Source: Flavobacterium nitratireducens (lineage in GTDB: Bacteria > Bacteroidota > Bacteroidia > Flavobacteriales > Flavobacteriaceae). Taken from it: a stretch of 64,000 bases of DNA. Under the pieces are notes generated by a model. It had not been told where the DNA came from. It saw only the letters and a list, made by a program, of their open reading frames with translations, and did no database searches. The position numbers and the translations under genes were made by a program. Positions 22,377 to 54,033 of the stretch are shown here, piece by piece; the first letter of the stretch is position 1; the number at the start of each line of letters is the position of its first letter. Location: positions 620,001 through 684,000 of the forward strand of contig NZ_CP121111.1 of the NCBI RefSeq assembly GCF_029625335.1, read 5' to 3'.

Positions 22377-23450
22377 ATGGAACAATTTATAGTATCTGCC
22401 CGCAAGTACCGTCCGCAAACATTTAATGATGTTGTAGGACAAAAAGCGATTACCAATACTTTATTGAATGCCATAGAAAACAACCATTTGGCTTCTGCCC
22501 TTTTATTTACTGGACCGCGTGGTGTTGGAAAAACGACTTGTGCCAGAATTCTGGCTCGTAAAATCAATCAACCTGGTTATGATGATCCTAACGAAGACTT
22601 TGCTTTCAATGTTTTCGAATTAGATGCTGCGTCGAATAACTCTGTAGATGATATTCGTAATCTAATTGACCAAGTTCGTATTCCACCACAAACCGGAAAA
22701 TACAAAGTCTATATTATAGATGAGGTACACATGTTGTCATCGGCAGCTTTTAATGCTTTTTTGAAAACATTAGAAGAACCACCTAAACATGCAATTTTTA
22801 TTCTGGCAACTACCGAAAAACATAAAATCATTCCAACGATTTTATCGCGTTGTCAAATTTTTGATTTCAAAAGAATCACCGTTAAAGATGCTAAAGAACA
22901 TTTAGCCGAAGTAGCAACAAACCAAGGTGTTGTTTTTGAAGATGATGCTTTACATATTATCGCTCAAAAAGCAGATGGCGCCATGCGTGATGCTTTGTCA
23001 ATTTTTGACAGAGTGGTTTCCTATTGCGGAAGTAATCTGACACGTCAGGCAGTTACCGAAAACCTAAATGTGCTGGATTATGAAACTTACATTAATGTAA
23101 CCGATTTAATTCTGGAGAATAAAATCCCGGATTTACTGATTACTTTCAACGAAATTCTTGCAAAAGGTTTCGATGCACATCACTTTGTAGCCGGATTAGC
23201 TTCACATTTCCGAGATTTATTGGTAAGCAAAACACCTTCAACTTTAAGTTTATTAGAAGCAGGTGAACAAGCTCAAAAAATGTATGGAGTTCAGGCTCAA
23301 AAATGTACTCAAGAATTTCTTTTGCAAGGAATTGCTATTGCAAACGAATGTGATTTAAAATACAAATTAAGTCAAAACCAACGATTATTGGTTGAACTTT
23401 GCCTGATGCAATTAGCCTCCATCACTTTTGATGGAGAAAAAAAAAGTTGA
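22377..23450 (+). CDS. dnaX: DNA polymerase III gamma/tau subunit, clamp-loader part (gamma form)
   Basis: Clamp-loader ATPase. The 357-aa frame has ARKYRPQTFNDVVGQ, Walker A GPRGVGKTT, Walker B IIDEVHMLSSAAFNAFLKTLEEPP, and the SRC motif LSRCQIFDF. The four-cysteine zinc module found in E. coli DnaX is absent; ARKINQPGYDDPNEDFAFN takes its place. The frame stops at TGA 23448, just after an A9 run (23437-23445), while the downstream region continues in the other frame with a tau-like C-terminus. Losing one A, or slippage in transcription or translation, gives a 571-aa tau. The stop placed immediately after a slippery run mirrors known DnaX gamma/tau production. Confidence 0.9.
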   Translation: MEQFIVSARKYRPQTFNDVVGQKAITNTLLNAIENNHLASALLFTGPRGVGKTTCARILARKINQPGYDDPNEDFAFNVFELDAASNNSVDDIRNLIDQVRIPPQTGKYKVYIIDEVHMLSSAAFNAFLKTLEEPPKHAIFILATTEKHKIIPTILSRCQIFDFKRITVKDAKEHLAEVATNQGVVFEDDALHIIAQKADGAMRDALSIFDRVVSYCGSNLTRQAVTENLNVLDYETYINVTDLILENKIPDLLITFNEILAKGFDAHHFVAGLASHFRDLLVSKTPSTLSLLEAGEQAQKMYGVQAQKCTQEFLLQGIAIANECDLKYKLSQNQRLLVELCLMQLASITFDGEKKS

Positions 23451-24093
23451 ATCCTTTATAATTCCACCAACTTATTTTAGAAAAAACGATTATTCAATAG
23501 TTGAACAAAAGAAGGCTGTTGAAAACACTATTAGCACAACTACTTCTGCTCCTACTGAATCAGTTCCTACGAACAACCCAGCTGCAGTTGCTGAAACGCC
23601 TAAAAAAGTAGATGTAGAAACAACTGGACCTAAATTCTCAGCATTATCTTTATCAAGTATTCGTGCGAAAAAAGAATTGGAACAAAACAAAAAAGTAATC
23701 GTTAGAGAGACTGTTGATTTACCAACTGAACCTTTTACCGAAACCGAAATGTTGTTGCAATGGACTAACTATGCAAAACGTTTAGGAGACAAAGGCTCAA
23801 AAATCATGGAATCGTTATTACTTATTAATGATCCTGTTCTAAACGGAACAACAATTAGTATCGAGTTACCCAACGAAGGTTCAAAATTAGATTTTGAGAA
23901 AGAGATGAACGGTCTTTTAGGGCATTTAAGAGGACACCTTCACAACCACAATATCAAAATCGATATAATTGTCAATGAAAATGTCACTATCAAAAGAGCA
24001 TTAAATGATCAGGATAAATACAATCGTTTACATGAAATAAATCCAAATATTGATTTATTAAGAACTACTTTCGGACTAGACTTAAACGCCTAA
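23428..24093 (+). CDS. dnaX: tau-specific C-terminal region of DnaX, in the shifted frame
   Basis: Open in the +1 frame relative to the upstream dnaX frame, through the A9 run, to TAA at 24091-24093. About 215 residues: a low-complexity linker (NTISTTTSAPTESVPTNNPAAV) and a conserved C-terminal domain (FTETEMLLQWTNYAKRLGDKG, LEHEINPN-like end). The apparent start codons TTG/ATG at 23428/23431 lie inside the upstream gene, so independent initiation is less likely than a fusion made by slippage. Domain content matches the C-terminal part of full-length flavobacterial gamma/tau proteins. Confidence 0.7.
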   Translation: MMEKKKVESFIIPPTYFRKNDYSIVEQKKAVENTISTTTSAPTESVPTNNPAAVAETPKKVDVETTGPKFSALSLSSIRAKKELEQNKKVIVRETVDLPTEPFTETEMLLQWTNYAKRLGDKGSKIMESLLLINDPVLNGTTISIELPNEGSKLDFEKEMNGLLGHLRGHLHNHNIKIDIIVNENVTIKRALNDQDKYNRLHEINPNIDLLRTTFGLDLNA

Positions 24094-28688: not shown

Positions 28689-31600
28689 ATGAAAACAACT
28701 TTACTCAAACTAGAATTAAAGCAAACTTTCATATTTGGCTTACTACTATTCTTTATTAGTATTACCAATAGTTTTGCTCAGGACACCTTTGATGGTAAAT
28801 ACTGTCCTGGACCAGGTGCTTCTGGAGATGAATATGCAACAGGCACAGTCTTTAGTCAGGTCTTAAGACAAAGTCCCTCCTCAACATGTCAAATAGGAAC
28901 AATTCATGCCAAAGTCGATACTCAAAATCAAATATTGAGATTAGGAATGAATATAGGTAATGGAGGTGCTGCGCTTTTTAGACTATATTTAGATACTGAT
29001 AACAATCCTTCAATAGGTTTGACTTCTGACAATTTTGGTGGAACACTAACTATTCCAGGAGCAGACTATATTTTAGAAATTAATTCTAATGCATCTACTT
29101 TCAAATTATATTCCGGAAGTGGAAGTACTAAAACAGAGCTAACTGTAAATAATGGTTTAGCTGCGCTAAATGGAAGCGCCACGGGTTGTAATAGTGGTGG
29201 TGGATCGTTTTTAGAATTCAATATTCCTTTTGGAAGTATTGGATTTAATATCTGTAATGCAAACAGCCCAGGAACTATCAATATTTCAAAATTAGCATCT
29301 GTTAGTGGTAATTCAGAAAACTCAAGTTTATGTGAAAACATATCTCTTACTTTTGGAATTCCATTAAAAGGATCTGTCAGTCCAGATGCAACGGTATGTT
29401 CAGGAACTAATAGCACAATTTTAACTGCCACAGTTCCATCTGGTTCAACTATCGTAAAATGGCAATCTTCCATAAGCCCATTCACCACATGGACTGATAT
29501 AACTAACACTTCTACAACTTATACAGCAACCAACCTAACTGAAACTAAATTATTCAGAGCTGTATTCTCAAATGCCGGTTTGTGTAGTGGAAGCAATATT
29601 GCAACATCTGAAGCAAAAATAACTGTTACCGCTCCTCCGAGTATATCTACAACCAAAAATAACGTTTCATGTTACAATGGCAATAATGGACAAGCTACAG
29701 CTTCAGCTAGTGGAGGAACTGGTCCTTATACTTATTCCTGGAATACAAACCCTGTACAAACTACGGCAACTGCATCTAATCTTGCTGCAGGTACTTATTC
29801 TGTGACTGTAACTGATTCTAAAGGTTGCTCTACTTCTGCTGAAGTTACTATCACACAACCTGATGCAGCCTTAAGTGCTAGTATTTCTAATCCAACTAAT
29901 GTAAATTGTTATGGTGAAGCTACTGGTGAGGCTACTGTAAGTGTTTCTGGTGGTACAGCTTCTTACTCTTACTCTTGGAATACAAACCCTGTACAAACTA
30001 CGGCAACTGCATCTAATCTTGCTGCAGGTACTTATACTGTGACTGTAACTGATTCTAAAGGTTGCTCTACTTCTGCTGAAGTTACTATCACACAACCTGA
30101 TGCAGCCTTAAGTGCTAGTATTTCTAATCCAACTAATGTAAATTGTTATGGTGAAGCTACTGGTGAGGCTACTGTAAGTGTTTCTGGTGGTACAGCTTCT
30201 TACTCTTACTCTTGGAATACAAACCCTGTACAAACTACGGCAACTGCATCTAATCTTGCTGCAGGTACTTATACTGTGACTGTAACTGATTCTAAAGGTT
30301 GCTCTACTTCTGCTGAAGTTACTATTACACAACCTGATGCAGCCTTAAGTGCTAGTATTTCTAATCCAACTAATGTAAATTGTTATGGTGAAGCTACTGG
30401 TGAGGCTACTGTAAGTGTTTCTGGTGGTACAGCTTCTTACTCTTACTCTTGGAATACAAACCCTGTACAAACTACGGCAACTGCATCTAATCTTGCTGCA
30501 GGTACTTATTCTGTGACTGTAACTGATTCTAAAGGTTGCTCTACTTCTGCTGAAGTTACTATTACACAACCTGATGCAGCCTTAAGTGCTAGTATTTCTA
30601 ATCCAACTAATGTAAATTGTTATGGTGAAGCTACTGGTGAGGCTACTGTAAGTGTTTCTGGTGGTACAGCTTCTTACTCTTACTCTTGGAATACAAACCC
30701 TGTACAAACTACGGCAACTGCATCTAATCTTGCTGCAGGTACTTATTCTGTGACTGTAACTGATTCTAAAGGTTGCTCTACTTCTGCTGAAGTTACTATT
30801 ACACAACCTGATGCAGCCTTAAGTGCTAGTATTTCTAATCCAACTAATGTAAATTGTTATGGTGAAGCTACTGGTGAGGCTACTGTAAGTGTTTCTGGTG
30901 GTACAGCTTCTTACTCTTACTCTTGGAATACAAACCCTGTACAAACTACAGCAACTGCATCTAATCTTGCTGCAGGTACTTATTCTGTGACTGTAACTGA
31001 TTCTAAAGGTTGCTCTACTTCTGCTGAAGTTACTATCACACAACCTGATGCAGCCTTAAGTGCTAGTATTTCTAATCCAACTAATGTAAATTGTTATGGT
31101 GAAGCTACTGGTGAGGCTACTGTAAGTGTTTCTGGTGGTACAGCTTCTTACTCTTACTCTTGGAATAAAAACCCTGTACAAACTACAGCAACTGCATCTA
31201 ATCTTGCTGCAGGTACTTATACTGTGACTGTAACTGATTCTAAAGGTTGCTCTACTTCTGCTGAAGTTACTATTACACAACCTGATGCAGCCTTAAGTGC
31301 TAGTATTTCTAATCCAACTAATGTAAATTGTTATGGTGAAGCTACTGGTGAGGCTACTGTAAGTGTTTCTGGTGGTACAGCTTCTTACTCTTACTCTTGG
31401 AATACAAACCCTGTACAAACTACAGCAACTGCATCTAATCTTGCTGCAGGTACTTATACTGTGACTGTAACTGATTCTAAAGGTTGCTCTACTTCTGCTG
31501 AAGTTACTATCACACAACCTGATGCAGCCTTAAGTGCTAGTATTTCTAATCCAACTAATGTAAATTGTTATGGTGAAGCTACTGGTGAGGCTACTGTAAG

Positions 31601-34600
31601 TGTTTCTGGTGGTACAGCTTCTTACTCTTACTCTTGGAATACAAACCCTGTACAAACTACGGCAACTGCATCTAATCTTGCTGCAGGTACTTATACTGTG
31701 ACTGTAACTGATTCTAAAGGTTGCTCTACTTCTGCTGAAGTTACTATTACACAACCTGATGCAGCCTTAAGTGCTAGTATTTCTAATCCAACTAATGTAA
31801 ATTGTTATGGTGAAGCTACTGGTGAGGCTACTGTAAGTGTTTCTGGTGGTACAGCTTCTTACTCTTACTCTTGGAATACAAACCCTGTACAAACTACGGC
31901 AACTGCATCTAATCTTGCTGCAGGTACTTATTCTGTGACTGTAACTGATTCTAAAGGTTGCTCTACTTCTGCTGAAGTTACTATTACACAACCTGATGCA
32001 GCCTTAAGTGCTAGTATTTCTAATCCAACTAATGTAAATTGTTATGGTGAAGCTACTGGTGAGGCTACTGTAAGTGTTTCTGGTGGTACAGCTTCTTACT
32101 CTTACTCTTGGAATACAAACCCTGTACAAACTACGGCAACTGCATCTAATCTTGCTGCAGGTACTTATTCTGTGACTGTAACTGATTCTAAAGGTTGCTC
32201 TACTTCTGCTGAAGTTACTATTACACAACCTGATGCAGCCTTAAGTGCTAGTATTTCTAATCCAACTAATGTAAATTGTTATGGTGAAGCTACTGGTGAG
32301 GCTACTGTAAGTGTTTCTGGTGGTACAGCTTCTTACTCTTACTCTTGGAATACAAACCCTGTACAAACTACAGCAACTGCATCTAATCTTGCTGCAGGTA
32401 CTTATTCTGTGACTGTAACTGATTCTAAAGGTTGCTCTACTTCTGCTGAAGTTACTATCACACAACCTGATGCAGCCTTAAGTGCTAGTATTTCTAATCC
32501 AACTAATGTAAATTGTTATGGTGAAGCTACTGGTGAGGCTACTGTAAGTGTTTCTGGTGGTACAGCTTCTTACTCTTACTCTTGGAATACAAACCCTGTA
32601 CAAACTACAGCAACTGCATCTAATCTTGCTGCAGGTACTTATACTGTGACTGTAACTGATTCTAAAGGTTGCTCTACTTCTGCTGAAGTTACTATTACAC
32701 AACCTGATGCAGCCTTAAGTGCTAGTATTTCTAATCCAACTAATGTAAATTGTTATGGTGAAGCTACTGGTGAGGCTACTGTAAGTGTTTCTGGTGGTAC
32801 AGCTTCTTACTCTTACTCTTGGAATACAAACCCTGTACAAACTACAGCAACTGCATCTAATCTTGCTGCAGGTACTTATACTGTGACTGTAACTGATTCT
32901 AAAGGTTGCTCTACTTCTGCTGAAGTTACTATCACACAACCTGATGCAGCCTTAAGTGCTAGTATTTCTAATCCAACTAATGTAAATTGTTATGGTGAAG
33001 CTACTGGTGAGGCTACTGTAAGTGTTTCTGGTGGTACAGCTTCTTACTCTTACTCTTGGAATACAAACCCTGTACAAACTACGGCAACTGCATCTAATCT
33101 TGCTGCAGGTACTTATACTGTGACTGTAACTGATTCTAAAGGTTGCTCTACTTCTGCTGAAGTTACTATCACACAACCTGATGCAGCCTTAAGTGCTAGT
33201 ATTTCTAATCCAACTAATGTAAATTGTTATGGTGAAGCTACTGGTGAGGCTACTGTAAGTGTTTCTGGTGGTACAGCTTCTTACTCTTACTCTTGGAATA
33301 CAAACCCTGTACAAACTACGGCAACTGCATCTAATCTTGCTGCAGGTACTTATTCTGTGACTGTAACTGATTCTAAAGGTTGCTCTACTTCTGCTGAAGT
33401 TACTATCACACAACCTGATGCAGCCTTAAGTGCTAGTATTTCTAATCCAACTAATGTAAATTGTTATGGTGAAGCTACTGGTGAGGCTACTGTAAGTGTT
33501 TCTGGTGGTACAGCTTCTTACTCTTACTCTTGGAATACAAACCCTGTACAAACTACGGCAACTGCATCTAATCTTGCTGCAGGTACTTATTCTGTGACTG
33601 TAACTGATTCTAAAGGTTGCTCTACTTCTGCTGAAGTTACTATCACACAACCTGATGCAGCCTTAAGTGCTAGTATTTCTAATCCAACTAATGTAAATTG
33701 TTATGGTGAAGCTACTGGTGAGGCTACTGTAAGTGTTTCTGGTGGTACAGCTTCTTACTCTTACTCTTGGAATACAAACCCTGTACAAACTACAGCAACT
33801 GCATCTAATCTTGCTGCAGGTACTTATTCTGTGACTGTAACTGATTCTAAAGGTTGCTCTACTTCTGCTGAAGTTACTATCACACAACCTGATGCAGCCT
33901 TAAGTGCTAGTATTTCTAATCCAACTAATGTAAATTGTTATGGTGAAGCTACTGGTGAGGCTACTGTAAGTGTTTCTGGTGGTACAGCTTCTTACTCTTA
34001 CTCTTGGAATACAAACCCTGTACAAACTACAGCAACTGCATCTAATCTTGCTGCAGGTACTTATTCTGTGACTGTAACTGATTCTAAAGGTTGCTCTACT
34101 TCTGCTGAAGTTACTATTACACAACCTGATGCAGCCTTAAGTGCTAGTATTTCTAATCCAACTAATGTAAATTGTTATGGTGAAGCTACTGGTGAGGCTA
34201 CTGTAAGTGTTTCTGGTGGTACAGCTTCTTACTCTTACTCTTGGAATACAAACCCTGTACAAACTACAGCAACTGCATCTAATCTTGCTGCAGGTACTTA
34301 TTCTGTGACTGTAACTGATTCTAAAGGTTGCTCTACTTCTGCTGAAGTTACTATCACACAACCTGATGCAGCCTTAAGTGCTAGTATTTCTAATCCAACT
34401 AATGTAAATTGTTATGGTGAAGCTACTGGTGAGGCTACTGTAAGTGTTTCTGGTGGTACAGCTTCTTACTCTTACTCTTGGAATACAAACCCTGTACAAA
34501 CTACAGCAACTGCATCTAATCTTGCTGCAGGTACTTATACTGTGACTGTAACTGATTCTAAAGGTTGCTCTACTTCTGCTGAAGTTACTATTACACAACC

Positions 34601-37600
34601 TGATGCAGCCTTAAGTGCTAGTATTTCTAATCCAACTAATGTAAATTGTTATGGTGAAGCTACTGGTGAGGCTACTGTAAGTGTTTCTGGTGGTACAGCT
34701 TCTTACTCTTACTCTTGGAATACAAACCCTGTACAAACTACAGCAACTGCATCTAATCTTGCTGCAGGTACTTATTCTGTGACTGTAACTGATTCTAAAG
34801 GTTGCTCTACTTCTGCTGAAGTTACTATCACACAACCTGATGCAGCCTTAAGTGCTAGTATTTCTAATCCAACTAATGTAAATTGTTATGGTGAAGCTAC
34901 TGGTGAGGCTACTGTAAGTGTTTCTGGTGGTACAGCTTCTTACTCTTACTCTTGGAATACAAACCCTGTACAAACTACGGCAACTGCATCTAATCTTGCT
35001 GCAGGTACTTATACTGTGACTGTAACTGATTCTAAAGGTTGCTCTACTTCTGCTGAAGTTACTATCACACAACCTGATGCAGCCTTAAGTGCTAGTATTT
35101 CTAATCCAACTAATGTAAATTGTTATGGTGAAGCTACTGGTGAGGCTACTGTAAGTGTTTCTGGTGGTACAGCTTCTTACTCTTACTCTTGGAATACAAA
35201 CCCTGTACAAACTACGGCAACTGCATCTAATCTTGCTGCAGGTACTTATACTGTGACTGTAACTGATTCTAAAGGTTGCTCTACTTCTGCTGAAGTTACT
35301 ATCACACAACCTGATGCAGCCTTAAGTGCTAGTATTTCTAATCCAACTAATGTAAATTGTTATGGTGAAGCTACTGGTGAGGCTACTGTAAGTGTTTCTG
35401 GTGGTACAGCTTCTTACTCTTACTCTTGGAATACAAACCCTGTACAAACTACGGCAACTGCATCTAATCTTGCTGCAGGTACTTATACTGTGACTGTAAC
35501 TGATTCTAAAGGTTGCTCTACTTCTGCTGAAGTTACTATCACACAACCTGATGCAGCCTTAAGTGCTAGTATTTCTAATCCAACTAATGTAAATTGTTAT
35601 GGTGAAGCTACTGGTGAGGCTACTGTAAGTGTTTCTGGTGGTACAGCTTCTTACTCTTACTCTTGGAATACAAACCCTGTACAAACTACGGCAACTGCAT
35701 CTAATCTTGCTGCAGGTACTTATACTGTGACTGTAACTGATTCTAAAGGTTGCTCTACTTCTGCTGAAGTTACTATTACACAACCTGATGCAGCCTTAAG
35801 TGCTAGTATTTCTAATCCAACTAATGTAAATTGTTATGGTGAAGCTACTGGTGAGGCTACTGTAAGTGTTTCTGGTGGTACAGCTTCTTACTCTTACTCT
35901 TGGAATACAAACCCTGTACAAACTACGGCAACTGCATCTAATCTTGCTGCAGGTACTTATTCTGTGACTGTAACTGATTCTAAAGGTTGCTCTACTTCTG
36001 CTGAAGTTACTATCACACAACCTGATGCAGCCTTAAGTGCTAGTATTTCTAATACAACTAATGTAAATTGTTATGGTGAAGCTACTGGTGAGGCTACTGT
36101 AAGTGTTTCTGGTGGTACAGCTTCTTACTCTTACTCTTACTCTTGGAATACAAACCCTGTACAAACTACGGCAACTGCATCTAATCTTGCTGCAGGTACT
36201 TATACTGTGACTGTAACTGATTCTAAAGGTTGCTCTACTTCTGCTGAAGTTACTATCACACAACCTGATGCAGCCTTAAGTGCTAGTATTTCTAATCCAA
36301 CTAATGTAAATTGTTATGGTGAAGCTACTGGTGAGGCTACTGTAAGTGTTTCTGGTGGTACAGCTTCTTACTCTTACTCTTGGAATACAAACCCTGTACA
36401 AACTACGGCAACTGCATCTAATCTTGCTGCAGGTACTTATACTGTGACTGTAACTGATTCTAAAGGTTGTAAAACAACTATCGATGTAACAATCTCTGAA
36501 CCTGAAAATGCTTTATCAGCTACGGCTTCTAACCAAGTAAATGTGTCTTGTAAAGGTGGTAACGATGGTTCGGTTGTAATTACTCCTGCTGGGGGAACTG
36601 CTGGATATACAATCACTCCTGCTCAAACTGGTTTAACAGCTGGTGTACATACTTTCACTGTTACTGATGCTAAAGGTTGTTCGACAACTATCGATGTAAC
36701 AATCTCTGAACCTGAAAATGCTTTAGCATTAGCTACATCTTCTAAAACAGATGCTTCTTGTAATGGATCAAGCACTGGTTCGGTAACTGCTGGTACAGTA
36801 ACTAATGCTGTAGGAACGGTAACTTACTCTTGGAAAAACGCTGCTAATACGGAAGTTGGAACTACGGCAACAGTAAACAACCTTCCTGCTGGAACTTACA
36901 CCCTTACTGTTACTGATAATTGTTCTTCTCAATCTAATTCGGTTACTATTGGACAACCTGCTAATCCATTAGACTTAGCTGCTTCTTCTAAAACAGATGC
37001 AACATGTTATGGTGATAGTTCAGGCTCGGTAACTGCTGGTGCGGTAACTAACGCTGTAGGAACGGTAACTTACTCTTGGAAAAATGCTTCAAATTCTGTT
37101 GTAGGAACTACGGCAACAGTAAATAATCTTCCTGCTGGAACGTATACCCTTACTGTTACAGATAATTGTTCTTCTCAATCTAATTCAGTTACTATTGGAC
37201 AACCTGCAGCAATAGAACCTATAAATATAGAAGCTGTTTGTAACACGGATCGTACTGAAATTATTAATTTAAATGGTTATCTTCCATCAGGCACTCCATT
37301 AAATGGAACTTGGATAGATGATAATACAAACACATTAAACAATAATGAATTTAAACCGTTTAATGTTCCAACAGGAAGCTACACATTTGAATATCAAGTA
37401 ACAGTTGGTGAGTGTCCTTTAAGTTATTTTGTGACAATTCCTGTTACTGATTTAGATTGTGGTTTAGTATTAGGTTGTGGAACTATTCTAGTTCACAATG
37501 CTTTCACTCCAAATGGAGACGGAACTAATGAAGTATTCAAAATTGACAATCTTGAAGATACTATTTGTTATCCAGAAAACACAGTTGAAATCTATAATAG

Positions 37601-37805
37601 ATGGGGAGTATTAGTTTATGAAACCAAAGGTTACAATAATTCAGACAAGTCATTCAAAGGATTCTCTGAAGGAAGAGTAACTATTGATAAATCTGCAGGT
37701 TTACCTACAGGTACTTACTTCTATATCTTGAATTATACATCTGTTGGTTTACAAGGTGAATTAATTCCTAATAAACAACAAGGATATTTATACCTAACTA
37801 GATAA
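28689..37805 (+). CDS. sprB: giant SprB-repeat cell-surface adhesin with T9SS type B C-terminal domain
   Basis: 3038 aa. Signal peptide [11 protein letters not shown]...NSFAQ, then an N-terminal region of about 290 aa, then 32 SprB-type repeats of about 79 aa: one divergent ([10 protein letters not shown]), 28 nearly identical ([10 protein letters not shown]...[25 protein letters not shown]), and three variants at the end. The final about 110 residues are the gliding-motility-associated C-terminal domain ([34 protein letters not shown]), the secretion signal for type IX export of SprB-class proteins. Founding member SprB is the mobile adhesin of Flavobacterium gliding; this is a paralogue or orthologue of smaller size (SprB is over 6000 aa). 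Followed by porP/sprF and a porE-like gene. Confidence 0.9.
29739..36469 (+). repeat. array of about 28.4 tandem 237-bp units in the sprB-like gene
   Basis: Unit length 237 bases = 79 codons, so the frame is kept. Units differ mainly at three sites: ACG/ACA, ACT/TCT (Thr/Ser in GTYxVTV) and ATC/ATT. Rare changes are a Lys codon at 31167-31169, a Thr for Pro at 36054 and a 6-base TTACTC insertion near 36126-36143. Haplotype order shows that units starting at 30108-31293 recur in the same order at 31530-32715, a 1422-base higher-order duplication. Near identity implies recent expansion or homogenisation; short-read assemblies would collapse it. Confidence 0.95.
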
Positions 37806-38788: not shown

Positions 38789-40730
38789 ATGAAAAAAAAT
38801 ATACTCCTTTGTATAGCTATGATAAGTGTTTTTTCATTTAACATTTATTCTCAAAAAGCTAAGTTGGCTAATGCCGATAAAAAGTACGACAACTATGCTT
38901 ATATAGAACGCTATTAAAACCTATGAAAAAGTTGCCGAAAAAGGATATAAGTCGGCTCCTATGTTCCAAAAAATAGGAAATGCCTATTATTTTAATGGTG
39001 AATTAGATAAAGCGGTAAAATGGTATGCTGAACTTTTTGCTATGCCCGAAACTACAATAGAACCTACTTATTATTACCGTTACGCACAATCCTTAAGAGC
39101 AATTGGTGAAAATAAAAAAGCAGACGAAGTTCTAAAAGAGTTTGATAAACTATCTGCTAATGATAGTAGGGCAACATTATATAAGAAAAACACTAATTAT
39201 TTAGATGAAATTAAAGCAAATTCTGGGAGGCACAAAATAGAAAACGCAGGTATTAATTCTAAATACTCTGATTACGGATCAAGTATTTATAACAATAAAA
39301 TAGTTTTTACATCAGCAAGAGATACTGGTAGTTTAGGACAAAGAATTCATACTTGGACAGATCAACATTTTACTAATCTATACAGTGCTGATTTAGATGA
39401 TCAAATGTCACCTAGTAATCCCGTAAAAGCTTTCAGAAAATTAAATTCTAAATTTAATGAAGCCACTCCTGCATTTACTAAAGATGGTAAAACTGTCTAT
39501 TTTACAAGAAATAATTATATTGATGGTAAAAAAGGAAAAAGCGAAAGTGGAATTACTTTAATTAAACTTTACAAAGCATCTTTAGAAGGAGAAAAATGGA
39601 TTAAAATTCAAGAATTACCATTCAATAGTAATAATTACAGTACTGCACATCCAACATTAAGTCCGGATGAGAAAACACTTTATTTTGCATCAGATATGCC
39701 GGGTACATTAGGTATGTCAGACATCTTTAAGGTACAAATCAATGATGACGGTACTTTTAGTAATCCCGTAAATTTAGGACCTGAAATAAACACTGAAGGG
39801 AGAGAAACGTTTCCTTTTGTTAGTGAAGAAAATGAACTCTATTTTGCCTCTGATGGACATCCTGGAGTTGGAGGTTTAGATGTCTTCATGACAAAAATTA
39901 ATGATGATGGTACTTTTAATAAAATTCAAAATATAGGGATGGATGCAAACTCTCCTAAAGATGATTTTGCCTATATTATTGATAGTAAATCAAGAAAGGG
40001 ATTCTTTTCTTCAAATAGAAATGGCGGTGAAGGATATGATGATATTTACAAATTTCTAGAAACCCGAAAATTAGTGTGCGAACAAGAACTTTACGGAGAA
40101 ATAACTGATATTGATTCCAAATTACCCCTACCAAACGCCAAAGTAACACTTTTTGACAAAAAAATGAACTTTTTAAAAGCAGTTAATGCAAATGATAAAG
40201 GTGAGTATAGTTTTATTGTAGAATGCAGTAAAATGTATACAGTAAGAGCTGAAAAAGAGGGATATGGAACTAATGAAAAACAAATTAATATCCCTTATGA
40301 AAACGGAAAAACATATTTACCAATTGAGTTAGAAAAAGATCAATGCAAAGTAACCATTGGAGATGATTTAGGTAAATGTTTTGGAATTAAAAATATTTAT
40401 TTTGACTTAGACAAATCCAACATTAGAACAGAAGCTGCCTTAGATCTTGAAAAAATATTAGATGTCTTGAATCAATATCCTAGCATGAAATTAGATATTC
40501 GATCTCATACAGATAGTCGCGCATCTCATAAATACAATGAAGCCTTATCCGATCGAAGAGCTAAATCTACTATTAGTTGGTTAATTAAAAATGGGGTAAG
40601 TGCTGATCGACTAACTGGTAAAGGTTATGGAGAAAATCAATTAGTAAACAAATGTTCTGACGGTGTAAAATGTACCGAAGAAGAACACCAAATGAACCGA
40701 AGAAGTGAATTTATAATTACGGCACTTTAA
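38789..40730 (+). pseudogene. PorE-like OmpA/PD40/TPR protein, interrupted near the N-terminus
   Basis: ATG 38789 gives a signal peptide (MKKNILLCIAMISVFSFNIYSQ) and a TPR start, then a TAA at 38915. Removing one base near 38909 restores the TPR (AIKTYEKVAEKGYKSAPMFQKIGNAYY) and a 646-aa protein: TPR, PD40/WD40 beta-propeller (DSSxY-like LSPDEKTLYFASD repeats), a carboxypeptidase-regulatory-like domain (ELYGEITD...ATVTLFDK type), and an OmpA peptidoglycan-binding end (IYFDLDKSNIR...LSDRRAKS). This order equals PorE, a T9SS component that ties the secretion machine to the cell wall. If the break is real the protein lacks its export signal. The region after 38961 reads as 589 aa from an internal ATG. 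Confidence 0.8.
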
Positions 40731-40749
40731 TAAAAAGCAAATCAAACTT

Positions 40750-40783
40750 AAACCTCGGAAATAATAATTCCGAGGTTTTTTTA
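40750..40783 (+). terminator. intrinsic terminator of the sprB-sprF-porE-like operon
   Basis: Stem AAACCTCGGAA/TTCCGAGGTTT, 7-base loop, T7 tail; 20 bases after the stop. Confidence 0.9.
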
Positions 40784-40807
40784 TACATTTACTTTTTATC
40801 CATAGCT

Positions 40808-41404
40808 ATGAAGTCAATAAATTTAATGCTCCTCACCTTTATAGGATTCTTTTCCTGGTCAATAATCAATCCTAAAGAAGGTTTTACCTGTTTTCTAGAA
40901 ATCATTCCTGCAATCATTGGATTTGCAATCTTACTCGCAACATATAATAAATTTAGATTTACTAATTTTACTTACTTTCTAATTCTTATTCATTGTATAA
41001 TCTTATTTATTGGCGGACATTATACCTATGCCGAAGTACCATTTTTTGACACAATTAAAGAAACATTTCATCAAAGTAGAAACAATTATGACAAAGTAGG
41101 TCATTTTGCTCAGGGCTTTATTCCTGCCATGATTATAAGGGAGTTATTTATAAGAAAAAAAGTAATTGCTAATAAACAGTTTTTTAATTTCATCATCGTT
41201 TGTATTTGTCTTGCTATTAGCGCTGCTTACGAATGGATTGAATGGTTTGTTTCTTTAGCAACTGGAGAAGGTGGTGATGCCTTTTTAGGAACACAAGGCG
41301 ATGTTTGGGACACGCAATCGGATATGTTGTTTGCTACAATAGGAGCTGTTTTAGCTTTAATTCTATTATCTAAAACACAGGATAAGTATTTACAAAAATT
41401 ATAA
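40808..41404 (+). CDS. DUF2238 (YjdF-like) membrane protein
   Basis: 198-aa integral membrane protein with about five or six hydrophobic helices. Family marks: DKVGHFAQGFIPAMIIRE and the acid-rich loop YEWIEWF...GDAFLGTQGDVWDTQSDM. These match the DUF2238/YjdF group, function unknown. Conserved His, Glu and Asp near the membrane could bind metal. Begins shortly after the operon terminator and has no close operon partner. Confidence 0.85.
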   Translation: MKSINLMLLTFIGFFSWSIINPKEGFTCFLEIIPAIIGFAILLATYNKFRFTNFTYFLILIHCIILFIGGHYTYAEVPFFDTIKETFHQSRNNYDKVGHFAQGFIPAMIIRELFIRKKVIANKQFFNFIIVCICLAISAAYEWIEWFVSLATGEGGDAFLGTQGDVWDTQSDMLFATIGAVLALILLSKTQDKYLQKL

Positions 41405-41437
41405 ACTTAATTTCAAAATTAAGTTTAGTAATAAAAA

Positions 41438-41876
41438 TCAATGATTATCTTCTGTATTATTTCTTAACAAATTTATAAGAACACATACAATAATAATATT
41501 TTTAACCACATACTGTCCTAATAAAGTAAAACTAAAAGAACTTATATTAAAAGAAAGTTCCGGAAAAATAAAAAACACCGAGAATGTAAAACTTAAATGG
41601 ATGATCGCTAAAATTGTTGTTATTCGTTGTTTATAATTTAAAATAAAAAACAAGCCTATTAAGGTCTCCCACATAGCCAAAACCAAATATGAAATATCCG
41701 AATGAACGCTATTATTTATTAAAACATCTATTGTTTTTTTTTGCAATATCTTCTGCGGGACTAAAATTTGGAAAAAATTTTAATACCCCAAAGACAAAAT
41801 AAATCACTCCTATAGAAAAGATAATTAAACGATTTCCTGAAAATACTTCAGATAAAACAACATGAGTTTTTTTCAT
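41438..41876 (-). pseudogene. DoxX-like membrane protein, split at an A9 run
   Basis: ATG 41876 opens MKKTHVVLSEVFSGNRL, a first helix, and FGVLKFFPNFSPAEDIAKK; reading then fails at an A9 run (41734-41742, T on the plus strand). With A8 it continues TIDVLINNSVHSDISYLVLAMWETLIGLFF to the stop, 145 aa and four helices, typical of small DoxX-like proteins. A 102-aa piece starting at ATG 41746 lacks the first helix. Break could be natural, slippage-prone, or a sequencing error. Function of the family is uncertain. Confidence 0.65.
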
Positions 41877-42005
41877 TATTTATAGATTGGTTTGTCTTTG
41901 TTAAGTGATTTTTCTTTATCCTTCAAATAAGTACACCGTATTAGTAAAATACCCTAATCTATTTTACATGTTTTTTTGATAAACTTTAGATTAAAATAGT
42001 TGTAT

Positions 42006-42042
42006 AAAAAAAGGTTTGAAAATTACTTTTCAAACCTTTTTT
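42006..42042. terminator. strong bidirectional terminator near purC
   Basis: Symmetrical stem AAAAAAAGGTTTGAAAA paired with its complement around TTAC. It lies 27 bases beyond the purC stop and would work on the minus strand. Confidence 0.85.
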
Positions 42043-42069
42043 TATGTCTTTAAAATTTTTAAATCAAGA

Positions 42070-43023
42070 TTATAAACTAGACAAATAAGCAACAACATTC
42101 TTCTCTATTCTCTCATTGATGTTCGAAATATCTGCTTTTACAAATTTTTCTCCAATGATATTTTCATATAATTCAATATATCTATCGGATACTGTTTCGA
42201 TATATTCGTCAGTCATATTAGGAATTTGTTGTCCTTCTTTTCCTTGAAATCCATTTTCAATTAACCAACGACGTACAAACTCTTTTGATAATTGTTTTTG
42301 CTCCTCTCCTTTTGCCTGTCTTTCTTCGTAACCTTCCGCATAAAAATAACGAGAAGAATCCGGAGTATGGATTTCGTCAATCAATACAATCTGACCGTCT
42401 TTAGTTTTTCCAAATTCATATTTCGTATCCACTAAAATCAATCCACGACTGGCTGCGATTTCAGTTCCTCTTTGAAATAAAGCTCTGGTATATTTTTCTA
42501 AAACCAAATAATCTTCTTCAGTCACAATTCCTTTTGCTAAAATAGCTTCTCTGGAAATATCTGCATCGTGTTCACCATTATCTGCTTTTGTAGTAGGCGT
42601 AATAATTGGTTCTGGAAATTTATCATTTTCTTTCAAACCTTCAGCTAAAGCTACACCGCAAAGTGTTCTTTTTCTGGCAGCATATTCGCGAGAAGCATGA
42701 CCTGACAAATACCCACGAATTACCATTTCTACTTTGAATGGCTCACACAAATGACCAACAGCAACACTAGGATCCGGAGTAGCAATCAACCAGTTTGGTA
42801 CAATATCCTGAGTCAATTCCATGAATTTTGTAGCAATTTGGTTTAGGATTTGCCCTTTATAAGGAATCCCTTTGGGCAAAACCACATCAAAAGCCGAAAG
42901 CCTGTCGGTTGCCACCATTACTAATAATTCGTCGTTGATATTGTAAACCTCTCTTACTTTTCCTCTATAAACCGATTTTTGACCAGGAAAATTAAAATTA
43001 GTGGTAGTGATTGTATTACTCAT
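42070..43023 (-). CDS. purC: SAICAR synthetase (phosphoribosylaminoimidazole-succinocarboxamide synthase)
   Basis: Purine biosynthesis step joining CAIR and aspartate. 317 aa: ATP-grasp-like N-terminus ([26 protein letters not shown]), [12 protein letters not shown], then [28 protein letters not shown], the hallmark segment of PurC. Length matches the longer Bacteroidetes and eukaryote-like form. Stands alone on the minus strand between two terminator/repeat regions. Confidence 0.96.
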
Positions 43024-43055
43024 GTAAATTGAATTGAGATTATTTAATATGAATG

Positions 43056-43087
43056 CAAATTTAGGATTATTTTAGACAGAAAAACAA
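43056..43087 (-). promoter_or_regulatory. promoter of purC
   Basis: On the minus strand TTG (43087 to 43085) and TAAATTTG (43063 to 43056), 21 bases apart. Predicted start lies about 28 bases before the ATG at 43023. Confidence 0.6.
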
Positions 43088-43130
43088 AGAAAGTATCCTC
43101 TCTCTAAAATAATAAAAATACAAACTTTTT

Positions 43131-43276
43131 ATTTACCGCAAAGAGTAATGAGGTTTCGCAAAGTAAACAAAGAAAAATCTGTATTTATTTATCTAATCTA
43201 TGGCTAAATTTTTAACCGCAAGCTTCGTAAAACTTTGTGGGCTTTGCGCAGTCTTTGTGTGCTTTGCGGTTAAAAA
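43131..43276. repeat. intergenic repeat of the ACCGCAAAG type
   Basis: The left part (TTACCGCAAAG...TTTCGCAAAG) is complementary to the right part (CTTTGCGCAG...GCTTTGCGGTTAA), allowing a long imperfect hairpin. Similar half-elements occur near 14331 and 62506. No protein-coding signal. Confidence 0.6.
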
Positions 43277-43295
43277 AAATTCCGAAGCTTTTAGT

Positions 43296-44126
43296 TTATT
43301 TAGCTTCCAAACTCACATTATTGAGTATTTTGTCTGCAATATAATTAGCAACTCCATCTTCGTGGTTTTTAGAAATCACTTCCAAATGGGGTAATTTATT
43401 TTTCAAACTATCTGGTGCATTTCCCATCAATAAGCCTTTGGCCGTTGCATTCAACATTCCTTCGTCGTTGTAACCATCACCAAAAGCAATAGTTTGATGA
43501 AATTCATAGCCTTCAATTTCAAGAATTTGACCAATAGCCACACTTTTATCCACATTTTTATTCATGAATTCTAAACAATGTGGTAAACTAAAGGCGTGAC
43601 TAAAAGTATCTGGATGTTTTTCTAATATACTTTCTCTAAGCTCCAGTAATTTGGCATGACTATCGTGCTTGAAAAATATTTTTATAGCTTCAAAATCGGT
43701 CATTTCTTTGTAATTAACTAGTTCAGGAACATAAGTTAATTCTTTTTGAAATTCCAATAATTTACTATCATGTTTATTGGTTTGCCAGACATTTTCTTTA
43801 AAAAGAACTGAAGTATATTCATCAGGGATCTCCATTTGCATCACTGATTTTACCGCTTCGCTATCCATATTTGTAGCAAATATCAATTCTTTATCGGGTG
43901 CATGGATACGGGCTCCATTAGAAGTAACTAAATATACAGGAAAACCCAAAGAAGAAACAATTGACATTGCATCAAGATGATGACGACCTGTAGCAACAAT
44001 GATTAGATAATTTTTACGGTATAATTCATTAAAAACCTGTTTAGTGTATTCTGAAATTCGGTGGTCACTGTTCAATAAAGTTCCGTCTAAGTCACTAACA
44101 ATGACTTTAATATTTTCTTTTATCAT
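43296..44126 (-). CDS. Cof-type HAD-IIB phosphatase
   Basis: 276 aa from ATG 44126 (MIKENIKVIVSDLDGTLL); the in-frame ATG 27 bases upstream adds no conserved sequence. HAD motifs: DLDGTLL (nucleophile Asp), VATGRHH, and GDGYNDEGM with a cap C2 domain between. Cof-type HADs dephosphorylate sugar phosphates or pyridoxal phosphate and FMN; the substrate is unknown here. Single gene with a repeat downstream. Confidence 0.88.
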   Translation of the reverse strand: MIKENIKVIVSDLDGTLLNSDHRISEYTKQVFNELYRKNYLIIVATGRHHLDAMSIVSSLGFPVYLVTSNGARIHAPDKELIFATNMDSEAVKSVMQMEIPDEYTSVLFKENVWQTNKHDSKLLEFQKELTYVPELVNYKEMTDFEAIKIFFKHDSHAKLLELRESILEKHPDTFSHAFSLPHCLEFMNKNVDKSVAIGQILEIEGYEFHQTIAFGDGYNDEGMLNATAKGLLMGNAPDSLKNKLPHLEVISKNHEDGVANYIADKILNNVSLEAK

Positions 44127-44230
44127 AAATTCATTTACTCTTATTCTTAGCAAAAATACCTAAAATGCTTTGAAGTCGACGTCTAACACTCTTGAAATAA
44201 CAGCAAATTAACGTATGCTTACCTTATTTT

Positions 44231-45058
44231 TTACTTAAAACGAAGCCCAAAAACTCGATACCTAATTATTCTCCCAAACAATTGATACCCTAAAAAATTG
44301 CGAAGGATATTGAGCGCATTAGCATCAAAACCAATAGTGTTGCGTTTAAACTTCTTGGGTGGATTTTCGGCAATTTTTAATACTTTTTCAATAATTGATT
44401 GTTTCAAATCGGTATTCTTTTTGGTTTTACCTTCAACAATATGACTAATTTTAAGCATTAATTCGTTATAACATTTTAAAGGAGTGGTTTTACATTTGGA
44501 TACATTTTTTTGAAAATTAGAAGGTGTATTTCCAAATTGAACCGTAGAAACACTAATATTAAAATTCATGAGTTCATAAGCCATACATTCTGAAAAACTC
44601 TCCACAGCATGCTTGGTAGAATGATAAAAACTACCCAATGGCAAATTGACCAGACCAGCAATTGACGAAATATTGATAAAATGTCCTTTTTCTTGTTTTC
44701 TAAAAACCGGAGTAAATGCTCGGCAAACTTTAACTACTCCTAACCAATTGACATCGACAATATGTTTAATTTGCTCATCCTCAGAAAATTCCACAAAACT
44801 TCTATAGCCTATTCCTGCATTATTTATTACAACATCTATTCTTTCGAAATCAGCAAGAATTTGCTCTTTGGCATTTTCGATACTAATTGTTGAAGTAACA
44901 TCTAGAATATAACAATGAATATTAGTCTTATTCTTGAGTTCATTTCCCTCTTCTAAACAGAGCATTGTAGCGATAACATTCCAATTATTTTTTGCAAAAT
45001 GCAAAGCTAATTCCTTTCCTATTCCTGTTGCTGCTCCTGTTATAATTACGTTCTTCAA
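44231..45058 (-). CDS. short-chain dehydrogenase/reductase
   Basis: 275-aa classical SDR. NAD(P) loop TGAATGIGKELALHF, NNAGIGY, catalytic Ser in ISSIAG, and YHSTKHAVE with the catalytic Tyr and Lys. The C-terminus (RIIRYRVFGLRFK) is hydrophobic-basic, perhaps for membrane contact. Substrate unknown. It follows phoH on the same strand but a terminator separates them. Confidence 0.9.
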   Translation of the reverse strand: MKNVIITGAATGIGKELALHFAKNNWNVIATMLCLEEGNELKNKTNIHCYILDVTSTISIENAKEQILADFERIDVVINNAGIGYRSFVEFSEDEQIKHIVDVNWLGVVKVCRAFTPVFRKQEKGHFINISSIAGLVNLPLGSFYHSTKHAVESFSECMAYELMNFNISVSTVQFGNTPSNFQKNVSKCKTTPLKCYNELMLKISHIVEGKTKKNTDLKQSIIEKVLKIAENPPKKFKRNTIGFDANALNILRNFLGYQLFGRIIRYRVFGLRFK

Positions 45059-45074
45059 TAGTTTACTGTTTTTA

Positions 45075-45106
45075 TTAAAAAACTACGACCCTGATTAGGG
45101 TCGTAG
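45075..45106 (-). terminator. intrinsic terminator of phoH
   Basis: Perfect stem CTACGACCCT/AGGGTCGTAG with a 4-base loop; on the minus strand it is followed by TTTTTTAATAAAAA. It lies 31 bases past the phoH stop. Confidence 0.85.
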
Positions 45107-45136
45107 CTACATGATATTTTAAGTTATTATAATTCT

Positions 45137-46087
45137 TTAATCAACGTTTTCGGTATATTTATAAGCGTCAATAATCTTTTTAACTAATCGATGTCTTACA
45201 ATATCTTTATCATCTAGATAAATAATTCCAATCCCGTCAATATCCTTTAAAACTAATAACGCTTCTTTAAGACCAGATATTGTTCTACGTGGTAAATCTA
45301 CCTGTCCAGGGTCACCAGTAACCATAAATTTAGCGTTTTTACCCATACGAGTCAAAAACATTTTCATTTGCGAATGCGTAGTGTTTTGAGCTTCATCCAG
45401 AATTACAAAAGCATTATCTAAAGTTCGTCCACGCATGAAAGCTAATGGCGCAATTTGAATAATTCCTTTGGCAATATAATCTTCTAATTTTTCATTCGGA
45501 ATCATATCGCGCAAAGCATCATACAAAGGTTGCATGTACGGGTCTAGTTTTTCTTTCATATCGCCAGGAAGAAAACCCAGATTCTCTCCTGCTTCTACGG
45601 CAGGTCTTGTTAAAATGATTCGTTTTACTTGTTTCTCTTTTAAAGCTTTTACAGCCATGGCAACACCAGTATACGTTTTACCTGTTCCTGCTGGCCCTAC
45701 TGCAAAAACCATGTCATTTTTGTTAATAGTATCGACTAATAATTGTTGGTTAGGCGTCATTGCTTTCACAATTTTACCACCTACTCCGTGTACTAAAATT
45801 TTGTCATTTGGACTCATTTTTTTGTCGTCCTGAGGGTCTCCTAAAATAACACGTTCAATAACATTATCATCAATATTGTTGTAACGGGTAAAATGAAGCA
45901 TCAATCTTTGAAAACGCCTTTCGAACTCATCCAATATGTCTTTTTCTCCAAATGCTTTGATAGTTGTTCCTCTGGCAACTATTTTTAATTTTGGATAATA
46001 TTTTTTAATGGTTTCAAGATGAGTGTCTTGAGCACCCCAAAACTCTTTTGGAGCGATGTCTATGAGCTCGATAATTCTTTCGTTCAA
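45137..46087 (-). CDS. PhoH-like ATPase
   Basis: 316 aa. N-terminal KH-like or nucleic-acid-binding region, then the PhoH core: Walker A GPAGTGKTYTGVAMAV, Walker B FVILDEAQNTTHSQMKMFLTR, and MVTGDPGQVDLP. Probably an RNA-linked ATPase/helicase, often near ybeY in other bacteria; here it stands beside an SDR and divergent from a SAM hydrolase. Complete. Confidence 0.92.
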   Translation of the reverse strand: MNERIIELIDIAPKEFWGAQDTHLETIKKYYPKLKIVARGTTIKAFGEKDILDEFERRFQRLMLHFTRYNNIDDNVIERVILGDPQDDKKMSPNDKILVHGVGGKIVKAMTPNQQLLVDTINKNDMVFAVGPAGTGKTYTGVAMAVKALKEKQVKRIILTRPAVEAGENLGFLPGDMKEKLDPYMQPLYDALRDMIPNEKLEDYIAKGIIQIAPLAFMRGRTLDNAFVILDEAQNTTHSQMKMFLTRMGKNAKFMVTGDPGQVDLPRRTISGLKEALLVLKDIDGIGIIYLDDKDIVRHRLVKKIIDAYKYTENVD

Positions 46088-46190
46088 AGGGTCTAATTTT
46101 ACAGTTTTACTTAATCAATTTTAAAACTCCTCCAAAATGCTTTTCATCTTGGTTTTATTTGGTTACTAATTAGAATTTATTTTGGCTTTT

Positions 46191-46222
46191 TTGCAATTTT
46201 GAAATTACTATTATTAGCTTTG
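46191..46222 (+). promoter_or_regulatory. promoter of the SAM hydrolase gene
   Basis: TTG 46191-46193 and TAGCTTTG 46215-46222, 21 bases apart; the gene starts at 46282, giving a leader of about 55 bases. Confidence 0.6.
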
Positions 46223-46281
46223 CATATCTCAAATTTAATGAAAATTAATTTTAGAATTCACCATTAGTTATAAACAAAAAT

Positions 46282-47112
46282 ATGTCAATAATTACCCTTA
46301 CTACCGATTATGGCTTGAAAGACCACTTTGTTGGTTCGCTAAAAGGGAAAATTTTATCTGAGTATCCAGAAGCCCAAATTATTGATATTTCGCACGATAT
46401 AGATCCCTTTAACATTGTAGAAGCCAGCTACATAATCGGTGCTTCTTATTCCAGTTTTCCCAAAGGAACAGTTCATCTTATTGGGGTCGATATGGAATTA
46501 AACAAGGAGAATCTTCATATTGTGATGCAATGGAACGATTCTTATTTTATTGCTGCCGATAACGGAATTTTAAGCATGCTTTCGCAAAAAATTGTTCCAC
46601 AAAAAATTGTAGCCATCAATATCCATGACCGTTTACCAAGTGATGCATCTGGATTAGATGTTTTTGTAACTGTGGCTTGCCATATTGCCAGAGGCGGCTT
46701 ACTAAATGTTATTGGAAGAGAGATTAACACTGTAAAAGAAGTGACCGAACTAAAAGCCGTTGTTGCTAATGATAACAACAGTCTTAAAGGTCATGTAATA
46801 TATATTGATCATTTTGGAAATGTGGTGACAAACATCACAAAAAAACAATTTCTGGAAGTTGCTAAAGGACGTCCTTATGAAATCCAAATGAAGACCAAAA
46901 ACATCAAAACTATATTACCGAATTATTCAGCAATTGCAATTTCGGATAAATACCCGATTAAGAATTACGAAGGAGAGAAATTAGCCATTTTTAACGAAGC
47001 AGGCTATCTCGAAATTGCCATTTTCAGAAGTAATCCTTCTAAAATTGGTTCCGCAAGTAGTTTGTTAGGACTCAATTACCGTGATGTAGTTTCGATAGAA
47101 TTTAAGAATTAA
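46282..47112 (+). CDS. S-adenosylmethionine hydrolase (adenosine-forming), DUF62 family
   Basis: 276 aa. N-terminal SAM-binding domain starting ITLTTDYGLKDHFVGSLKG, then ISHDIDPFNIVEASYII, and SYFIAADNGILS. Homologues related to chlorinases and fluorinases lack the halide-specific loops and hydrolyse SAM with water to adenosine and methionine. The second domain holds HVIYIDHFGNVVTNI. A role in SAM balance is likely. Followed by a repeat-like stretch, then gldF. Confidence 0.9.
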   Translation: MSIITLTTDYGLKDHFVGSLKGKILSEYPEAQIIDISHDIDPFNIVEASYIIGASYSSFPKGTVHLIGVDMELNKENLHIVMQWNDSYFIAADNGILSMLSQKIVPQKIVAINIHDRLPSDASGLDVFVTVACHIARGGLLNVIGREINTVKEVTELKAVVANDNNSLKGHVIYIDHFGNVVTNITKKQFLEVAKGRPYEIQMKTKNIKTILPNYSAIAISDKYPIKNYEGEKLAIFNEAGYLEIAIFRSNPSKIGSASSLLGLNYRDVVSIEFKN

Positions 47113-47193
47113 GATTTTAGATTAATGATTAACGATTTAAGATTTTTGAAGTAAAAAAAACACAACTCATAACTCAAAACCCATAACTCAATA
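47110..47193. repeat. low-complexity direct repeats upstream of gldF
   Basis: Short repeats of TTAAGATTTTAGATTAATGA type are followed by repeated AACTCATAACTCAAAACCCA units, a form of dispersed repeat common in flavobacteria. No coding signal; gldF starts at 47195. Confidence 0.5.
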
Positions 47194-47194
47194 T

Positions 47195-49603: not shown

Positions 49604-49642
49604 ATGTTAATAAAAATTTTTCTATACTAGATTTGTTTACGA

Positions 49643-49650
49643 TATATTTG
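49643..49650 (+). promoter_or_regulatory. -7-like box upstream of dnaN
   Basis: TATATTTG matches the consensus but has no clear TTG at the right distance. The gene starts 136 bases later. Weak. Confidence 0.3.
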
Positions 49651-49786
49651 TAAAAATGTAGGATTGACAATTTCAGCAAAAAGAAATTCAATATTTTAAA
49701 AGAATACATTAAACCGTTCCATTTCTGAAAGAAAAAAACAGACTATTGGCGTAAGTTATTACAATAAAAAAACAAATAATCTTCAT

Positions 49787-50905: not shown

Positions 50906-51024
50906 CATATTTTAGTAAAAAAAATGATATTGATAAATTTTAGTATATTTTATTTTTGATATTAAAATATATTACTTATCATTGCATCACCAAAAACGTA
51001 TTAACCAACCATTTTTTATATTTT

Positions 51025-51062
51025 AAAAAACCGCGATTCCTCCTTGAAAAGCGGTTTTTTTT
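51025..51062 (+). terminator. intrinsic terminator of dnaN
   Basis: AAAAAACCGC pairs with GCGGTTTTTT around a 16-base loop; about 120 bases past the stop. Confidence 0.75.
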
Positions 51063-51108
51063 GCTTTTTAGTAACCTCGAATTCACGAATTAATTTTGGT
51101 TGTTTTTT

Positions 51109-52986: not shown

Positions 52987-53053
52987 AATGAGTTAAATGA
53001 ATTACAAATATATAGGAGCCTCAACTATAAAAGAAAGAAATTCGCTTAAAATA

Positions 53054-54015: not shown

Positions 54016-54033
54016 CAACCAATTCAGAAAAAA

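Follow-up and report, generated by a model that had tools for sequence, protein, structure and literature searches.

How does a clamp-loader gene that is divided between two reading frames yield tau, the subunit that ties the polymerase to the clamp loader? This question is raised by dnaX of Flavobacterium nitratireducens in the window (the whole stretch of DNA that was analysed, 64,000 nucleotides). The gamma frame (22377..23450, + strand) encodes 357 aa, comprising the AAA+ clamp loader, the lid, and domain III, and matched positions 1-369 of PRK14971, the DnaX gamma/tau family (E 8.2e-184). Its 3' end reads GAA AAA AAA AGT TGA, in which a run of exactly nine A residues (23437..23445, + strand), the putative slippage run, is followed after one codon by the TGA (23448..23450) that ends gamma in the unslipped frame. 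A second frame on the same strand is open through the run, from 23428 to a TAA stop at 24091-24093. Its portion beyond the run (23446..24093), the tau C-terminal part, matched positions 418-614 of PRK14971 (E 1.2e-23); a Pfam search with the tail at 0.001 gave no hit. The remaining frame, which is neither gamma nor tau, is closed by a TAA at 23459..23461, and the distances from the run to the first stop are 1, 216, and 5 codons in the three frames. Tau forms one continuous ORF in relatives L023, L298, and L383, but not in the window. An initial annotation, made from the sequence alone, had described dnaX as split at an A9 run with the tau domain in the other frame, +1 relative to gamma and open through the run, and all of this was borne out in the sequence as assembled. 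It had placed the gamma stop five residues after the run, whereas the stop is really one codon after it; a distance of about five codons is that of most A10 relatives.

The split is shared by relatives and the tau tail is under purifying selection

One answer would be that dnaX is a plain pseudogene, or carries a disabling mutation, in this strain, and the window does hold other broken genes, gldG among them. We regard this answer as highly improbable. dnaX belongs to the core replication genes, most relatives carry a split of this kind, and the tail was open for at least 150 codons in 170 of 172 loci (repeats counted). Comparison of the window with six relatives gave tail dN values of 0.11-0.32 and dS values of 1.1-2.3, where dS above 1 is near saturation; the dN/dS ratios calculated from them were about 0.08-0.19 for the six pairs. 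By these ratios, the tau tail is under purifying selection, which indirectly favours two products, gamma and tau, and a pseudogene as a private event was refuted by this selection together with the split in relatives. The two loci with shorter tails, L053 (Flavobacterium davisii NZ_CP067378) and L311 (genome G195), each have a second frame break in the tau tail; these breaks may be indel errors, since G195 is a single contig and L053 is a chromosome record.

A run of at least nine A residues is conserved at the gamma/tau junction

The junction was compared in 80 named loci, the best 80 of 588 confirmed by protein similarity, and in a 109-locus set that combines these with 29 further loci, chosen by protein similarity alone. 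Among the best 80 of 588, the run was A10 in 75, A11 in 3, and A9 in 2, and gamma read straight into tau in five loci (L023, L036, L039, L047, and L052). All 109 loci of the larger set had at least nine A residues at the junction (104 A10, 3 A11, and 2 A9). The initial annotation had proposed that gamma and tau arise by slippage at a run and stop that relatives might conserve, and had named continuous frames without a long run as counting against the idea. Slippage is well supported by comparison: the run was always 9-11 A in the best 80 of 588 loci, and a run-less continuous frame was not the rule among them. The A9 with tau +1 did not prove to be the usual form, since only 2 of these loci had A9 and 75 of the 80 had A10.

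A chance origin of the run was ruled out by the rarity of long runs in other ORFs of the same loci; the other ORFs of the best-80 loci (254 kb) held seven A/T runs of at least nine, one of which is the L026 junction run counted again in the tail ORF. Because 85% of Lys codons are AAA and 84% of Glu codons are GAA, the peptide Glu-Lys-Lys-Lys readily yields A9 or longer. Conservation is therefore argued not from codon choice alone but from the persistence of the run when its codon phase and the encoded peptide differ, and from the closed frames described below.

Across 299 genomes of the genus, an A10 pattern was present in 256 and its reversed control in 6, these matches not each being placed in dnaX, and an A9 pattern was present in 13. 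The A9 pattern was placed in dnaX in G000 and G307 only, both single-contig assemblies. The other 11 matches are taken to lie outside dnaX, because an A10 match is also present and dnaX itself was seen with A10 in four of these genomes (G032, G085, G176, and G257). An A10 match was absent from 43 genomes, and dnaX was examined in 30 of them (the window, G307, and then 4 and 24 more), with 9 A residues in the window and G307 and 10-12 in the other 28; three of the remaining 13 have no dnaX and one has a fragment.

The run extends beyond the genus. All 12 loci from other genera of the family had A10 or A11, the long frame being uninterrupted in 11 and +1 in L388, and the 28-locus set to which they belong had at least ten A residues in every locus (two of these from genomes that also supplied loci to another set). 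Of 21 more distant loci within the order, 18 had at least nine A residues close to where the match ends. L283 (G047) has no long run at the usual place; its A12 lies 139 nt downstream inside the long open frame, and the other frames have stops nearby. L292, from a 0.3-Mb genome, showed no tail within the 450 bases read. At the level of class and phylum, 20 loci were hand-picked among the matches listed (9 with short frames and 11 with long ones), and 16 of these had at least nine A residues; L407, L412, L415, and L417 had no such run and one continuous frame.

The length of the run in this strain is a separate matter. Assembly error as the whole explanation was ruled out by the occurrence of the split in most relatives and was retained for run length alone. 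It is fairly probable that the true run is A10, as in the nearest kin, and that the A9 with tau +1 in the assembly is a homopolymer under-call, the split being programmed all the same. The nearest rows of the tree (L004, L085, and L006) all have A10, and both genomes in which A9 was placed in dnaX, of 13 A9-pattern genomes among 299, are single-contig assemblies. Moreover, comparison of positions 40001-60000 of the window with G203, a genome of the same species (73% complete, 40 contigs, 98.5-98.6% identity to the window), revealed 14 indels, with A/T runs shorter in the window at 6 and longer at 3; the run itself is not directly comparable, because G203 lacks dnaX. Against an under-call, A9 is also present in the draft assembly YO12 (L026). 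On balance, A10 is the likelier true length. The initial annotation had remarked that dnaX differs in direction from several other breaks in the window, which are missing bases; this difference would vanish with an under-called A10, since a base would then be missing here too. Slippage would be expected from A9 or A10 alike. A true A9 would require the loss of one A or the gain of two for tau to be made, and might yield a smaller proportion of tau than A10.

Tau lies in different frames among relatives, and the other two frames are closed

Among the 101 distinct N-terminal sequences of the 109-locus set, 91 had A10 with tau in the -1 frame, 3 had A11/-1, and 5 had A10/0; L026 had A9/+1, and L053 had A9 and was read as +1 up to its second break. 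Tau was thus -1 in 94 of these 101 relatives. A larger collection of 147 distinct rows comprised A10/-1 (127), A10/0 (6), A11/0 (4), A11/-1 (4), A9/+1 (4; the window, L026, L130, and L053), and A12/+1 (2; L300 and L315), the tau frames of L053 and L311 being assigned by hand. Twenty of the 147 rows were found by run patterns (L135-L164 by A10, and L127-L130 from A9-pattern genomes), and L298-L321, the source of the A11/0 and A12/+1 rows, came from genomes without an A10 match. Because of these pattern-chosen rows, the 147-row counts are not a fair sample, and the main tests were repeated on the 109 similarity-chosen loci.

Parsimony on a quick tree (SH-aLRT only, with 46 of 144 inner branches below 80) gave at least 11 changes of the tau frame. 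Two loci outside the 147 rows, L272 and L388, have A10 with tau +1. The +1 arrangement was present in many-contig assemblies (L300, L315, L272, and L388; 50-240 contigs) as well as in the draft YO12 (L026); the 50-240-contig assemblies are presumably short-read, which implies that +1 forms are not only errors of single-contig assemblies. A varying frame direction among homologues has been put forward as a sign of slippage by Antonov et al. (PMC3711429), and by the criterion given there the dnaX split reads as such a sign.

Both frames that do not encode tau are closed soon after the run. In the 109-locus set, both had a stop within 6 codons in 99 of 100 distinct tails, compared with 9.3 expected from synonymous shuffles that kept the tau protein, and the wider set gave 145 of 147 compared with 16 expected. 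For the A10/-1 rows, each stop was present in 126 of 127, compared with 47.1 and 60.5 expected. The size of this excess is not a probability, because related sequences are not independent. By comparison among these loci, then, the run is conserved, the non-tau frames are closed, the tail is selected, and the frame of tau has changed between lineages.

A hairpin directly precedes the run in Flavobacterium

RNA folding identified a perfect 8-bp hairpin, CTCCATCA CTTT TGATGGAG, directly 5' of the run (23417-23436, + strand). Its 5' arm, CTCCATCA, occupies 23417..23424, its CTTT loop 23425..23428, and its 3' arm, TGATGGAG, 23429..23436, the last base of which adjoins the A run. The hairpin and the closed third frame, both of which bear on mechanism, had been missed by the initial annotation. 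In the window, the hairpin has an MFE of -11.6 kcal/mol (z -5.3), and none of 200 shuffles folded as low. The fold was better than that of synonymous versions at p<=0.05 in 46 of 52 distinct sequences from the 109-locus set (mean -9.48 compared with -4.03) and in 57 of 64 distinct sequences of the wider set. In a scan of the gene in 64 sequences, the junction ranked first of 86 gene windows, with a mean z of -2.78 compared with -0.20 (sd 0.34) for the others, and the spacer between hairpin and run was zero in 60 of the 64. By a criterion of <=-6 kcal/mol, at least 6 bp, and a spacer of at most 1, the hairpin was present in 134 of 147 rows.

Codon choice in the arms was strongly biased relative to the rest of the gene. 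Among 100 distinct loci with an identity of 85% or more, none of them chosen by motif, Ala was GCC in 83 of 88 cases (24% elsewhere in the gene), Cys was TGC in 9 of 9 (36%), Ser was TCT or TCC in 98 of 100 (41%), Ile was ATC in 94 of 99 (20%), and Gly was GGA in 97 of 100 (47%). A set of 121 'core' rows had been selected for having GATGGA or GACGGA ahead of the run; its GGA count was left unused, because this choice makes the count circular. We conclude from the comparison that the hairpin is under selection, its 5' arm being conserved at synonymous positions.

Covariation was modest. Pairing-preserving double changes occurred in L085 and in L302, L303, and L386, and the hairpin alignments were hand-picked (A2, 34 rows; A1, 25 rows). 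Four cells were changed on both sides, a count equalled by 2 of 500 shuffles, and two of the eight pairs were changed on both sides, a count equalled by 62 of 500. Further pair types were no more frequent than in shuffles (473 of 500 do as well), and RNAalifold found no pair changed on both sides in the 25 hand-picked rows.

The hairpin is more restricted than the run. It reached p<=0.05 in 4 of 17 loci in the 74-84% identity class and in 2 of 18 below 74%, and by our reading of sequences and folds it was present in 6 of 12 loci from other genera of the family, once with a 1-nt spacer. Conservation everywhere was thus ruled out, the hairpin occurring only in Flavobacterium and certain other genera of the family, and it cannot be essential to slippage, because it is confined to one family. 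A trade-off between hairpin and run length was also rejected: the raw table gave p 0.006, yet independent pairs showed no trend.

Ribosomal frameshifting is a less likely source of tau

Alternatively, the ribosome could change frame by a -1 shift on A_AAA_AAG, in the style of E. coli dnaX with the roles reversed (gamma by default and tau shifted), the A9 of the window being a miscalled A10. We consider this unlikely. Most loci do have A10, tau -1, and an in-frame A_AAA_AAG; +1 is rare in the similarity-chosen sample, seen in L026 and the hand-assigned L053 among 101 distinct sequences; and no part of an assembly is less reliable than its homopolymer lengths. By contrast, the +1 and 0 arrangements occur with the same run and hairpin, and the third frame is closed as well, which speaks against pure -1 ribosomal shifting because such a shift needs one stop, not both. 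The hairpin, moreover, lies upstream of and adjoining the run, where a decoding ribosome would presumably have melted it. Downstream structure was not seen in Flavobacterium: RNAalifold on 25 hand-picked relatives gave the upstream hairpin only, and the downstream 80 nt of the window, L004, and L007 gave z values of -0.62, 0.95, and -0.24. The window, with codons AAA AAA AGT TGA and tau +1, lacks the A_AAA_AAG/-1 arrangement that the A10/-1 relatives have, and it lacks an E. coli-type downstream stem-loop. The 3' arm of the hairpin contains GGAG, which in A10 relatives precedes the heptamer by 3 nt; in E. coli dnaX, a Shine-Dalgarno-like stimulator has a spacing of about 10. The only kind of tRNA-Lys found was UUU (two genes; 58 tRNA places read and 150 of 303 candidates scored), a condition described as conducive to ribosomal shifting in E. 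coli (PMC5009743).

A candidate signal of the ribosomal kind was found in G055 (L288), a distant genome of the order. Here an A6 run forms A_AAA_AAG, frame 0 has an immediate TAG, frame -1 is long, and a 14-bp hairpin lies 6 nt downstream. The long frame gave no tail match by tblastn and is assigned to tau by position only. At this locus, slippage appears to have given way to ribosomal frameshifting, tau being the product of the shift.

A model for programmed slippage at the dnaX junction

Taken on its sequence features, dnaX quite likely relies on programmed transcriptional slippage to produce both gamma and tau. The window has the two features that mark dnaX slippage, a run of at least nine A residues at the gamma/tau junction and non-tau frames that close soon after it (at 1 and 5 codons). 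As RNA polymerase copies the A9 or A10 run, the rA:dT hybrid of ≈9-10 bp would realign and give mRNAs with one or more A residues added or lost, and a nascent hairpin ending exactly at the start of the hybrid would, by analogy, probably favour this realignment. Transcripts with tau in frame would yield tau (about 571 aa), and all others would stop within ≈1-5 codons and yield gamma (357 aa). We infer that slippage occurs, at some ratio between these transcripts, and that the hairpin has a role in it.

The closest precedent for the run is dnaX of Thermus thermophilus, in which transcriptional slippage takes place at nine A residues (PMC1088944, PMC5009743). As described there, that gene shares with the present one a junction run of at least nine A, nearby stops in the other frames, and the expectation of two products. 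In Thermus, however, tau is the unslipped and gamma the slipped product, whereas gamma is unslipped here, and the strict Thermus arrangement, with tau as one continuous ORF, is absent from the window. A hairpin adjoins the run here, and the available text of the two papers does not mention one for Thermus.

Two-ORF dnaX genes with A10 were already predicted by Antonov et al. (2013), who listed 17 of them from 12 genera, with 10 A residues in nine and 9, 8, or 7 in the others, and who proposed slippage; the clusters that were studied experimentally were other ones (PMC3711429, as far as its available text goes). Those genes, like the present ones, need recoding for tau, and the A10 relatives found here are of the same kind. 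Tau was -1 in all 17, whereas 0 and +1 arrangements, A11 and A12 runs, a closed third frame, and a hairpin occur here. The window itself is +1 as assembled, with an uncertain run length, compared with -1 in 94 of the 101 distinct relatives. A search that covered titles and the openings of abstracts, with subscription papers and supplements outside its scope, found no published description of the hairpin, of the changing tau frame, or of the breadth of the arrangement.

In E. coli, dnaX uses -1 ribosomal frameshifting (PMC3711429, PMC5009743, on the accessible text). The A_AAA_AAG of the A10 relatives and the single kind of tRNA-Lys resemble that system; the absence of a visible downstream stem-loop, the +1 tau of the window as assembled, and the reversed roles of gamma and tau do not. 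For the hairpin, the nearest parallel is the Roseiflexus IS630 transposase, in which polymerase slippage is stimulated by a stem-loop that immediately precedes the slippery motif, its stem lying at the upstream end of the 9-10 bp hybrid (PMC5009743, in the part available). In both genes the motif immediately follows an inverted repeat with a loop of 4 nt and a stem of 6 bp there and 8 bp here. The Roseiflexus motif is T5C5 with a one-base deletion, unlike the A9/A10 run in a replication gene here. The geometry of hairpin and run is the same, which by analogy suggests a putative stimulatory role for the hairpin in dnaX.

We lean, somewhat less firmly than to slippage itself, towards a broader interpretation in which an 8-bp nascent-RNA hairpin adjoining an A9-A12 run would form a cassette that works in any tau frame. 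The tail could then drift among three frames with gamma and tau both still made, the long subunit would come only from slipped transcripts in most examined Flavobacterium, and one lineage of the order (G055) would have swapped in a ribosomal frameshift signal that includes a hairpin downstream. If polymerase stuttering is the sole source of tau across most of this large genus, then a transcription error by design underlies the supply of an essential replication protein. The hairpin is a testable candidate stimulator of A-run slippage. Frame drift would explain shifts between 'intact' and 'split' annotations without gene loss, and dnaX splits of this kind should not be annotated as pseudogenes.

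Other observations on the window and the relatives

Six MAG records (L023, L039, L043, L044, L047, and L050) are titled Chitinophaga, Rhizobium, Bdellovibrio, or Sphingobacterium; these titles look wrong, because the dnaX genes in the records are 90-91% identical to that of the window. Among the other breaks that the initial annotation had reported, those in gldG and in an azoreductase gene do involve a frame change compared with relatives. The gldG change (48329; gene identified by family match) is absent from the same-species genome G203, and the gene called azoreductase (17272) gave only weak reductase/epimerase matches. At 41734-41742, the window has T9 where G203 has T8, which may be the surplus base reported for a DoxX-like gene. 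Finally, 28689-37805 on the + strand is a single ORF of 3038 aa.
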